Origin: an uncultured Chlorobiaceae bacterium | GTDB taxonomy: Bacteria > Bacteroidota > Chlorobiia > Chlorobiales > Chlorobiaceae | Length of the DNA: 38,166 nt | NCBI GenBank assembly: GCA_903940125.1 | Contig: CAJAJL010000040.1 | Span: forward strand, 1 to 38,166 | Reading direction: 5' to 3' | Part shown: positions 25,988 to 31,620 of the stretch, one piece after another | Position numbering within the stretch: the first letter of the stretch is position 1 | How the letters are laid out: each line of letters opens with the position of its first letter | Made by a program: the position numbers and the translations under genes | Notes under the pieces: model-generated | Databases searched by the model: none | What the model saw: the letters and a program-made list of their open reading frames with translations, nothing else | What the model was told of the DNA's origin: nothing

Positions 25988-26226
25988 GCAGATAAAAAGG
26001 ATAAAAAGGATTAAAGGCGCAATTCAAAAAAAGAAGAATATACAATTCCTTATGATATTGTTTCACAGACTGCTAAAATATCCTTTTTTTGAACTGGAGC
26101 CATCCAGATAAAAAATTTGGTTCTCTTTAGTTGCAAAGATACTTATCAATTACAATTTTTTTTATATTCTTTGTCTGAAATATAAGTAATTCTTTGTTTT
26201 TGTTAATGCTGTGACTTAACTTATAA

Positions 26227-26763
26227 GTGAAACTTGGTTTTCAGATAAAGTATTACGATCATGGGCCAGGAGGGTCGCTTTATACGATCCGTTTTGAAGG
26301 TGAAGATGAGACTGAGCTGGATAAGTTTCTTTCCAACAGGGAAATAACAAGATCTTATGACTTTGAATGTCTGGTTTCAAGAGTTGGAGATATGGTTGAT
26401 AATCTTGGTTTCAAAGAGGAGTTTTTTAAACCAGAAGGATCCATCCTGGATTCATTGACTGCTTTTCATTATAATAATGGACCTCTCAGGCTGTTTTGTT
26501 TGCGCTGGTCAAGTGTTTTGTTGATAGCGGGTTGTGGCGGTATTAAGGCGACTCGTACATATCAGGAGGATTCAACCCTTAATGATATTGCTGAGAACCT
26601 TCAAATAATAGATGGATTAATTGCATCTCGTCAACAATCCGGAGAAATCGTTATTGATTCGACTACAGGTTTTATAAGTGGGAATCTAAACTTTACCTCA
26701 AACAGATACGATTATGACATCACTGCTGAAACAAACCTTAGCAAAAATATCCCCCTATACTAA
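26227..26763 (+). CDS. RelE/HigB-like toxin candidate
   Basis: A 178-residue protein starting at GTG 26227. The segment LRLFCLRWSSVLLIAGCGGIKATRTYQED (core LRLFCLRW at 87-94 and GGIKATRTYQED at 104-115) resembles the end of the RelE/HigB fold, where a basic Lys/Arg-Thr strand lines the mRNA cleft. The N-terminus (FQIKYYDHGPGG) and the C-terminal tail after residue 125 are longer than in usual RelE proteins of 90-120 residues. It overlaps the XRE antitoxin gene by 50 bases. Toxin-first order matches HigBA. The role, probably ribosome-dependent mRNA cleavage, is inferred from fold resemblance and context. Confidence 0.6.
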   Translation: MKLGFQIKYYDHGPGGSLYTIRFEGEDETELDKFLSNREITRSYDFECLVSRVGDMVDNLGFKEEFFKPEGSILDSLTAFHYNNGPLRLFCLRWSSVLLIAGCGGIKATRTYQEDSTLNDIAENLQIIDGLIASRQQSGEIVIDSTTGFISGNLNFTSNRYDYDITAETNLSKNIPLY

Positions 26764-27130
26764 ACACTTTGTAAAACGTCAGGGTGAATTTGCTTTAAAA
26801 GTAAATGAGTTACTGGATGAGACCGGAATGACACAGAGAGAGCTTGCCGAAAAGTTGGGCAAAAAAGAATCGTATGTAAGTAGAGTTTTATCTGGTTGGG
26901 CAAACCCCACATTTAAAACTATGACGGCACTTGAAGTAGCTTTAGGTATTGAGTTTATTGATTTTCATCTGAAATTAAAAATCCAGAAGTTTGTTGGTAT
27001 TCAGTATCAGAAAAATCCTTGGGAGAACGTATCCCAAAATCCATGCGATATCAAAATGCCGGATGTTGTTTTGAGTTCTGAAAAAAATGCAATTGAATGG
27101 AAGGTAGATGAATGCAGTAAGGCCGCTTGA
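26714..27130 (+). CDS. XRE-family antitoxin candidate with C-terminal extension
   Basis: A 138-residue protein. The helix-turn-helix lies at residues 25-80: VNELLDETGMTQRELAEKLG, then ESYVSRVLSGWANPTFKTM. It should bind the operon promoter and neutralise the toxin encoded upstream. After the HTH there is a 55-residue extension (KLKIQKFVGIQYQKNPWENV and beyond) with scattered aromatic and hydrophobic residues; in toxin-antitoxin-chaperone systems such a tail (ChAD) is recognised by the SecB-like chaperone. The ATG at 26714 lies inside the toxin gene and the stop is next to the third gene, so all three are tightly coupled. Confidence 0.75.
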   Translation: MTSLLKQTLAKISPYTKHFVKRQGEFALKVNELLDETGMTQRELAEKLGKKESYVSRVLSGWANPTFKTMTALEVALGIEFIDFHLKLKIQKFVGIQYQKNPWENVSQNPCDIKMPDVVLSSEKNAIEWKVDECSKAA

Positions 27131-27135
27131 TAGCT

Positions 27136-27567
27136 ATGAGTGATAGAGATGTAATAGGTATAAGAATTAAAGGCTTCAAGTTCCTTGCTTTTGCTTTTAA
27201 ACAACAGGAAAATATAGATGCTAAAGAATCTTTTAATTTTGAAATAGCAACGAATATTGAAATCAATCAATCACAGCTTAATGTTAAGGTTTTTGTCAGA
27301 GTGATCAGGGTAAGCGTAAATAAGGAAGTAGCTAAAGCTGAAACCGCGACTTTATTCACTGTTGACGGATTTGAGCATTTTTTGTCAGGAGATGGGAATG
27401 TGAAATATCCGGACGGTTTTCTTGTTACACCCGTTTCATTGGCAATTTCAACAACTCGTGGTGCGATTTTAGCAAAAGGAGCAGGGTCGTTCCTGGAAAA
27501 TATTCCTTTACCAATTGTTGTCCCGAAGACATTTGTCCCGTCGTCTGATGATCGGGTAGAAAACTGA
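27136..27567 (+). CDS. SecB-like chaperone candidate of a toxin-antitoxin-chaperone system
   Basis: A 143-residue protein of predicted all-beta plus helix make-up. The segment YPDGFLVTPVSLAISTTRGA (91-110) followed by ILAKGAGSF and IPLPIVVP resembles the pattern of SecB-like proteins, in which a conserved TTRG strand-turn precedes a C-terminal helix and an LP-I-P segment. Long beta strands (NVKVFVRVIRVSVNKE, AETATLFTVDGFEHFL) fit the SecB fold. It starts right after the antitoxin stop (ATG 27136; a TTG at 27127 is an alternative). In TAC systems this chaperone protects the antitoxin from degradation. Assignment is by pattern and position, not by search. Confidence 0.5.
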   Translation: MSDRDVIGIRIKGFKFLAFAFKQQENIDAKESFNFEIATNIEINQSQLNVKVFVRVIRVSVNKEVAKAETATLFTVDGFEHFLSGDGNVKYPDGFLVTPVSLAISTTRGAILAKGAGSFLENIPLPIVVPKTFVPSSDDRVEN

Positions 27568-27610
27568 GATCATTAGTGAGCTGATCTACAATACAGTTCA
27601 CAATCATAAT

Positions 27611-27638
27611 AAGCCCTGTTTTTGGGCTTTTGCTTTTC
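27611..27638 (+). terminator. rho-independent terminator after the toxin-antitoxin cluster
   Basis: AAGCCC (27611-27616) and GGGCTT (27624-27629) form a stem with a seven-base loop, followed by TTGCTTTT. It closes the three-gene transcript 43 bases after its last stop codon. Confidence 0.75.
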
Positions 27639-27741
27639 CCCTTTTTTGTCCTCCCGTTTGAAATGCCTATATTGCGTAATATCAGAGTAGTGTAAGGGCG
27701 TATTTCCTCAAAAAGAATTTTTTCAATCTGTACCATTCTCC

Positions 27742-30095: not shown

Positions 30096-30491
30096 ATGAT
30101 TAGTATTGGAGATTTAAAAAAAATCGCAAAAGCAAGGCTTATTGATGCAGAAGCACTTGCCTCCTGCCACCGTTATGAAGGTGCGGTATATCTTTGTGGT
30201 TACGTTGTAGAACTTGGACTGAAGAACCGTATTTGCAAAACACTCAAATGGGAAGGCTTTCCTGGTTCCACCAAAGAATTTAAAGGATATCAAAGTTTTA
30301 AAACACACAATCTTGATATATTGCTTCACCTCTCGGGGGTTGAAGATATAATTAAAACAGGGTTACTTACTGAATGGTCTGTTGTGGCTGTATGGGATCC
30401 AGAGTCACGTTACAATCCAGTGGGTAATGTGTCTTTCGCTGATGTTCAGCTAATGATTTCTTCCTCCAAATCGTTATTGTCCAGGTTATGA
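30096..30491 (+). CDS. HEPN domain protein (toxin-like or partner)
   Basis: A 131-residue helical protein. The HEPN signature RYEGAVYLCGYVVELGLKNR (26-45) is followed by ICKTLKWEG, KTHNLDILLHLSG (69-81) and VVAVWDPESRYNP. It lacks an evident RX4-6H catalytic motif, so RNase activity is doubtful. The last codon overlaps the next gene in an ATGA, so the two form a unit that resembles toxin-antitoxin or defence pairs. The whole four-gene cluster runs to 31620 on one strand. Function unknown beyond the HEPN fold. Confidence 0.75.
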   Translation: MISIGDLKKIAKARLIDAEALASCHRYEGAVYLCGYVVELGLKNRICKTLKWEGFPGSTKEFKGYQSFKTHNLDILLHLSGVEDIIKTGLLTEWSVVAVWDPESRYNPVGNVSFADVQLMISSSKSLLSRL

Positions 30492-30896: not shown

Positions 30897-31328
30897 ATGG
30901 CCTTGATATTTTTTGATCTGACAAGCCTCCAAAGAGCAATAGCATCTCTGGAGAAGTCAATTTTCAGCTATCGGTCGCTTTCCGAAAACAGCACTCTGAC
31001 TAATGACGATATCGATACCGTCAAAGCCGGAGTAATACAGAACTTTGAAGTTGCCTATGAACAGTGCTGGAAATTTATGAAGCGCTGGATTGAGCAGAAT
31101 GTCAGTCCTGATATTGTGGATGGCGTGACCAGGAGAGAGCTTTTTAGGGTCAGTGCTGAAAACCGTCTCATTGATGATGTTTCAGTGTGGATGGAGTTTC
31201 ACCAGTCAAGAAACTTGACCGCTCATACCTATGATGCTGAAAATGCAGGTCATGCATTTAGTGCAGCACTGTTTTTTATTGATGCGGCTAAGGATTTTCT
31301 CAAGCGACTGGAGGCCCATCATGATTGA
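30897..31328 (+). CDS. hepT: HepT-like HEPN RNase toxin
   Basis: A 143-residue all-helical protein of the HI0074/HepT family. The catalytic motif RX4HXY is exact: Arg105, His110 and Tyr112 in SRNLTAHTYDAENA. In HepT this loop is the RNase active site and the tyrosine is the residue to which MntA adds AMP. VAYEQCWKFMKRWI (52-65) is the usual helix 2 signature. It overlaps the mntA gene by eight bases, the standard arrangement. The toxin is therefore predicted to be catalytically intact. Confidence 0.9.
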   Translation: MALIFFDLTSLQRAIASLEKSIFSYRSLSENSTLTNDDIDTVKAGVIQNFEVAYEQCWKFMKRWIEQNVSPDIVDGVTRRELFRVSAENRLIDDVSVWMEFHQSRNLTAHTYDAENAGHAFSAALFFIDAAKDFLKRLEAHHD

Positions 31329-31620
31329 TGTCAGCCCTTATGATCTTGATATAGTTCTTACTATTCTGGCAAAGTATGTCCCGGAATGCGAGGTCAGAAT
31401 TTACGGATCCCGCTACACAGGAACAGCAAAACAGTATTCCGATCTTGACATAGCCCTTGTAGGGCGTGAAAAGCTGGACTGGCGGGTTATGGCTGCTATA
31501 AAAGAGGAATTTCAGGAGTCTGAACTTCCTTTCCGTGTGGATATTCTTGACTGGAACTCTGTGTCAGCTGAGTTTCGAAAGGCAATCGAAGAGAGTGGTT
31601 ATCAGGTTATGGTTCAGTAA
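31321..31620 (+). CDS. mntA: MntA-like nucleotidyltransferase antitoxin
   Basis: A 99-residue minimal nucleotidyltransferase. The motif GSX10DXD is exact: Gly29-Ser30, Asp41 and Asp43 in YGSRYTGTAKQYSDLDIAL, with a third acidic residue Asp74 in FRVDILDW. MntA neutralises HepT by transferring AMP groups to its active-site tyrosine. The frame is open upstream of the ATG at 31321, inside hepT, but the family N-terminus fits this start. It is the last gene of the HEPN cluster. Confidence 0.92.
   Translation: MIDVSPYDLDIVLTILAKYVPECEVRIYGSRYTGTAKQYSDLDIALVGREKLDWRVMAAIKEEFQESELPFRVDILDWNSVSAEFRKAIEESGYQVMVQ

Follow-up and report, generated by a model that had tools for sequence, protein, structure and literature searches.

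In Mycobacterium tuberculosis, the toxin-antitoxin-chaperone (TAC) operon consists of Rv1955 (HigB1), Rv1956 (HigA1) and Rv1957 (SecB-TA), and its products are a toxin of RelE/HigB fold with a long C-terminal helix, an HTH antitoxin with a variable tail and a chaperone of SecB fold; the chaperone-addiction (ChAD) region of HigA1 carries a SecB-binding motif (PMC5105189), and the structure of Rv1957 was solved together with the HigA1 ChAD peptide (PDB 5mtw). In E. coli, CmdTAC (PD-T4-9) is likewise a three-gene TAC with a SecB-like third gene, and the last residues of its antitoxin CmdA are LAA, which is a signal for ClpXP found also in other TAC antitoxins; CmdA is degraded by ClpP (PMC11618068). 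A further E. coli system, HigBAC of strain C496, joins a HigB-type toxin and HigA to the SecB-like HigC and is a sensor of the phage lambda tail protein, as cited in PMC11980606; CmdTAC, MqsRAC and HigBAC are all reported to act against phages (PMC9519451, PMC11980606). TAC chaperones outside the Pfam SecB family (PF02556) have been reported already (PMC4257090). The PADLOC catalogue, in turn, contains PDC-M64, a defence candidate without a described mechanism, which is not mentioned in the literature that we searched.

We analysed a window of 38,166 nucleotides, that is, the whole stretch of DNA (contig C40 of G000), from a Chlorobium-group genome; uncultured Chlorobiaceae and Chlorobium sp. 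are the closest relatives that bear a name. At positions 26227-27567, the ORF calls give three adjoining and co-directed genes on the + strand, overlapping or touching as the initial annotation had described them, with 50 bases shared by genes 1 and 2, and the terminator placed at 27611 was found there as a hairpin with a T-rich tail. The features discussed below are the following:

26227-26763, + strand: toxin gene (gene 1), GTG start, 178 aa, predicted RelE/HigB fold
26704-26763, + strand: lineage-specific extension of the toxin ORF, forming the antitoxin overlap (DNA alignment with L031 and L032)
26714-27130, + strand: antitoxin gene (gene 2), ATG start, 138 aa, HTH_3/XRE
26807-26956, + strand: HTH domain of the antitoxin (Pfam HTH_3, residues 32-81)
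26948-27127, + strand: hypervariable C-terminal antitoxin tail, proposed ChAD region, whose length tracks the chaperone
26963-27022, + strand: tail segment FHLKLKIQKFVGIQYQKNPW, candidate SecB-binding motif read from the sequence (aromatic, basic, without acidic residues)
27122-27127, + strand: antitoxin C-terminal Ala-Ala, candidate ClpXP degron by likeness to CmdA
27136-27567, + strand: SecB-like chaperone gene (gene 3), 143 aa from ATG; ORF open from a TTG at 27127 (146 aa)
27611-27629, + strand: terminator-like hairpin, then a T-rich tail
25988-27741, no strand assigned: insertion interval with the cassette, between divergent metF and comEC, from the metF-comEC spacing in congeners

Gene order is the same as in the M. 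tuberculosis TAC, and both the ORFs and the relatives agree with this earlier comparison to HigBA followed by a SecB-like chaperone. Very probably, the window triad is a HigBA-type TAC operon. The evidence from this analysis lies in the folds, the gene order, conservation, partner swaps, the tail-chaperone correlation and the cassette insertion, while RNase activity, chaperone dependence, ClpXP degradation and a phage trigger are carried over from characterised TACs (PMC5105189, PMC9098466, PMC11618068, PMC9519451, PMC11980606). The mechanism of TACs is already known, and the window sequences are divergent members outside Pfam, catalogued as PDC-M64: aligned residues share only about 13-15% identity with the M. 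tuberculosis TAC, the antitoxin tails are unrelated in sequence to it, the window toxin is longer, and the window toxin and chaperone both fall outside the Pfam families.

Gene 1 has no match in Pfam or NCBIfam, and neither the window toxin nor 17 relatives reach the gathering score of Gp49 or HigB_toxin (PF05973, PF09907). Its AlphaFold2 model (pLDDT 82), nevertheless, has a predicted RelE/HigB-type alpha/beta fold, with a long C-terminal helix as in the M. tuberculosis toxin: HigB and RelE toxins lead the Foldseek search of the PDB, weakly (best E 0.016), and VIA-align gives Z 10.0 to Streptococcus pneumoniae HigB (rmsd 3.5, 112 residues) and Z 9.1 to the TAC toxin HigB1 Rv1955 (rmsd 3.8, 118 residues), with four HigB entries including Rv1955 at Z 10.0-8.8 and RelE/ParE/HigB-type chains making up almost all of the 50 rows listed. 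This fold separates the window toxin from CmdT, an mRNA ADP-ribosyltransferase, and brings it near the HigBAC toxin, which is described as of HigB type and is a canonical HigB by name, while the window toxin is missed by Pfam. The initial annotation had proposed a RelE-like protein with long N- and C-terminal additions; the fold stood, but the additions proved modest, the HigB-like region covering residues about 15-139. R88, C91, G102, G104, G105, K107 and Q113 are invariant (R88 and K107 among 18 aligned relatives), and R88 and K107 align with the R and K of Gp49/HigB, the latter being the Lys of the F-x-K motif, in a profile alignment that is in register though not significant (P 0.07). Given that the published catalytic set of HigB1 includes R77 and K95, equivalent to RelE R61 and R81 (PMC9098466), R88 and K107 may be the counterparts of the basic catalytic residues of RelE/HigB, as we infer from the sequence. 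Toxin relatives were not found in the phage and viral collections searched.

The end of the toxin gene differs in the window from that of its closest relatives. Both of these (L031, L032) have a stop codon at window positions 26704-26706, which is absent here, and the 50-base overlap with the antitoxin and the last 19 toxin residues exist because this stop codon was lost. Residues 160-177 have pLDDT under 50 and are predicted to be disordered, the conserved part of the protein stops at residue 159, and the toxins of relatives are mostly 158-168 aa long compared with 178 aa in the window. The overlap had been taken earlier as a sign of a new subfamily, an argument that we reject, since the stop codon is kept in both nearest relatives; the idea of a new subfamily itself holds for the sequences but not as a novelty of the family, which is already catalogued as PDC-M64, though without a mechanism. 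The lost stop codon and the overlap could also be read as marks of a degenerate copy in a decaying operon, as the comparison with the two close relatives would allow, but none of the three frames is interrupted, the conserved residues remain in place, and the toxins of L039, L040 and L043 (168 aa) likewise read over the antitoxin start, so that we regard decay as most improbable. Chlorobium sp. N1 has, next to an antitoxin and a chaperone that are both intact, a toxin of 134 aa from which an internal segment has been deleted (L047:3180-3584); the same contig also bears a second triad, which is diverged (L120).

Gene 3, whose relatives agree better with a start at the ATG at 27136 than at the TTG at 27127, also lacks a match in Pfam and NCBIfam. 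The Pfam SecB model (PF02556) does not match the window protein or anything else in the whole genome, and among 25 relatives it gives one hit, below threshold; a sub-threshold SecB sequence match (E 1.4) was set aside. By its fold, however, as modelled, gene 3 is SecB-like, outside PF02556: the AlphaFold2 model (pLDDT 81) has four strands followed by helices, the best 18 Foldseek matches are all SecB or Rv1957, headed by Rv1957 of 5mtw (E 4.8e-5), and VIA-align gives Z 10.5, 10.2 and 10.0 to three SecBs and 8.3 to Rv1957, the next unrelated rows having Z 8.2 and 7.4 with rmsd above 5. A thioesterase hot-dog fold was considered and discarded, as it appears lower in the Foldseek list and aligns with a smaller part of the chaperone. 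The SecB-like TTRG / LP-I-P pattern that had been noticed in the sequence is conserved in the relatives, with no variation at S108, R111 and P129 across 25 sequences. Set against SecB-type TAC chaperones, the gene-3 profile did not reach significance (P 0.01), and neither single-protein nor profile sequence searches of the PDB returned a useful match for the toxin or the chaperone; since the profile comparisons are not significant, the homology of toxin and chaperone rests on fold, position and partner swaps.

A solitary SecB-like gene, also outside PF02556, is encoded elsewhere in the same genome (G000:C112:17478-17930; L121:2979-3431, + strand), flanked by murB-like and nitroreductase-like genes, and the gene-3 profile search finds it in about 25 Chlorobium genomes. 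Its family and that of gene 3 are joined by profile comparison (probability 97.8, E 7e-13). It could be the general SecB of the Chlorobium group.

The second gene was described earlier as an XRE regulator with a 55-residue tail after its HTH, and this reading is borne out by a match to HTH_3 (PF01381, E 9e-11) and by about 60 residues beyond the last conserved HTH glycine. The presence of HTH_3 distinguishes it from CmdA, for which two helices and an unstructured tail are described (PMC11618068). Among relatives, the HTH is conserved and the tail is variable in sequence; the segment FHLKLKIQKFVGIQYQKNPW was picked out on the model of the type of SecB-binding motif in the ChAD of HigA1 (PMC5105189). 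The window antitoxin ends in SKAA, hence in AA as CmdA does, and AA ends 11 of 33 distinct chaperone-linked antitoxins, with AG, AS and VG frequent in the remainder and the tails unrelated; ClpX and ClpP are both encoded in the window genome.

The length of this tail varies with the presence of the chaperone. Counting distinct antitoxins, the median length after the last conserved HTH glycine is 56 residues where a SecB-like gene follows (n = 33) and 27 where none does (n = 12), a difference whose Mann-Whitney p of 1.8e-4 is only indicative because the sequences are related and not independent. The 12 chaperone-less antitoxins beside a toxin relative have mostly short or altered tails, although some (L113, L061, L063) retain long ones and fit the TAC reading more poorly. 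The antitoxin of L061, without a chaperone, is 98% identical to that of L006, with one, over residues 1-96, after which its tail has been replaced, and the shortened antitoxin of L075 contains near its end ILAKGAGS, the conserved chaperone motif, suggesting that a deletion joined the HTH to what is left of a chaperone; L061 and L075 both keep an intact toxin frame. This pattern is consistent with chaperone addiction but is no proof of it, because tail and chaperone could both be lost in a single deletion.

Of 394 genomes of the phylum, 31 have a relative of gene 3 (single-protein search) and 55 have one of the toxin (profile search), and most of these relatives keep the toxin-antitoxin-chaperone order with gene ends that overlap or nearly touch. 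The triad is spread over Chlorobiaceae and Bacteroidota and is carried on plasmids in Bacteroides thetaiotaomicron and Hymenobacter swuensis, and the co-occurrence of all three genes in the same order in many genomes goes beyond chance; together with the SecB and RelE/HigB folds, it supports the earlier suggestion of a TAC system of divergent sequence. One triad (L042) lies on a contig whose bin is labelled Candidatus Roizmanbacteria; its sample also yielded several bins of Chlorobiaceae, and the placement is probably a binning error.

More tellingly, the partners swap. In G038, G046 and G171, the gene after a member of the window toxin family and an HTH antitoxin encodes a PF02556 SecB above cut-off. 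Of these SecB-family proteins, that of G038 was compared with PADLOC and matched CmdC (PD-T4-9_C, E 2e-11), so that a CmdC-type chaperone can accompany the window toxin family. In G286 and G026, conversely, the window chaperone family follows a canonical HigB (PF09907, E 1e-20 and 2e-19) and a long-tailed HTH antitoxin. Because of these swaps, true SecB-family chaperones are seen to be partners of the toxin family, and true HigBA modules to be partners of the chaperone family. Behind the toxin-antitoxin-SecB operon of G046 there is also a 530-aa protein without a PADLOC match (L109:2351-3943). It might be argued that the locus is an ordinary two-gene HigBA-type module, with gene 3 being unrelated or a general export or folding chaperone placed downstream by chance, as relatives of the toxin-antitoxin pair without a chaperone gene do exist and many Chlorobium genomes have a solitary relative of gene 3. 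We hold this to be very unlikely, since the solitary gene lies at a locus of its own, gene 3 keeps its place in most relatives, the third place is still SecB-like after partners are exchanged, and antitoxin tail length follows chaperone presence.

The triad is a cassette put in between metF (MTHFR), its divergent upstream neighbour, and comEC, its downstream neighbour: the two are spaced by about 0.1-0.2 kb in 23 of 30 congeneric loci, as against 1,754 bases at the window. In G323, the nearest relative, the triad occupies this site as well, and in other Chlorobiaceae it is flanked by different neighbours. The same interval holds different inserts in four related genomes (L187-L190), namely, in G197, a MazF-like gene together with a large one that is PAS sensor-like, and, in G145, G161 and G217, a gene for a predicted secreted protein; the idea of the gap as a defence hotspot was not supported, other inserts being present there in these four genomes. 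Elsewhere in the window, a second toxin-antitoxin-like pair of the HepT/HI0074 type (30897-31620; nucleotidyltransferase substrate-binding, PF08780, E 2e-37, with an MNT nucleotidyltransferase) lies beside a weak HEPN protein (30096-30491).

All three window genes match PDC-M64 models in PADLOC, the toxin PDLC04756 (E 4e-32), the antitoxin PDLC04760 (E 5e-18) and the chaperone PDLC04763 (E 1e-11), the last being matched by 25 of 25 gene-3 relatives as well. The subunit letters of PDLC04752-PDLC04763 are mixed, with toxins as M64A or M64B, antitoxins as M64B or M64C and chaperones as M64C. Likely, then, TAC identity explains this candidate family. No obvious defence island surrounds the triad in the window. 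As single observations at individual loci, the B. thetaiotaomicron plasmid relative adjoins PD-Lambda-1, the Hymenobacter plasmid relative a type IV restriction enzyme, and the relatives L036 and L034 type I methylase or restriction genes, while the L029 relative, with a diverged first gene, lies between hsdS and hsdR. By analogy with described TACs, we lean towards an anti-phage role for the window operon. A TAC operon that serves stress responses or its own retention as an addiction module, without such a role, is the less probable reading: the window copy sits between the housekeeping genes metF and comEC, and stress is described as inducing the TAC of M. tuberculosis (PMC5105189); on the other hand, PADLOC classes the family as a defence candidate, the individual loci just listed adjoin restriction and PD-Lambda-1 genes, and CmdTAC, MqsRAC and HigBAC are reported as anti-phage systems (PMC9519451, PMC11980606).

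By analogy with characterised TACs, gene 1 would be a RelE/HigB-fold ribonuclease toxin, probably cleaving mRNA on the ribosome, and gene 2 an HTH antitoxin that would bind the toxin and repress the operon. The variable C-terminal tail of the antitoxin would make it fold poorly and would end in a ClpXP-type degron, and it is because of this tail, as proposed from characterised TACs, that the antitoxin would need a chaperone. Gene 3 would supply a dedicated, SecB-like tetrameric chaperone, holding the tail and preserving the antitoxin. Most likely, a newly made phage structural protein would draw the chaperone off by competing for it, whereupon the unprotected antitoxin would be degraded by ClpXP, the toxin freed and translation halted, in an abortive infection whose logic is probably shared with HigBAC.

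With this reading, a catalogued but unexplained defence candidate, PDC-M64, gains a testable mechanism, and TAC systems are extended to green-sulfur bacteria and to Bacteroidota plasmids. The relatives also offer natural experiments on chaperone addiction, in the form of antitoxins that are almost identical but have or lack the tail and the chaperone, and of toxins with swapped chaperone families. Far more tentatively, PDC-M64 might be a large and so far unrecognised group of phage sensors that are gated by a chaperone and built on their own non-PF02556 SecB lineage, one that also supplies the solitary Chlorobium SecB-like gene and may have replaced classical SecB there; if this were true, the cassette would sense phage structural proteins by means of a host-derived chaperone lineage.
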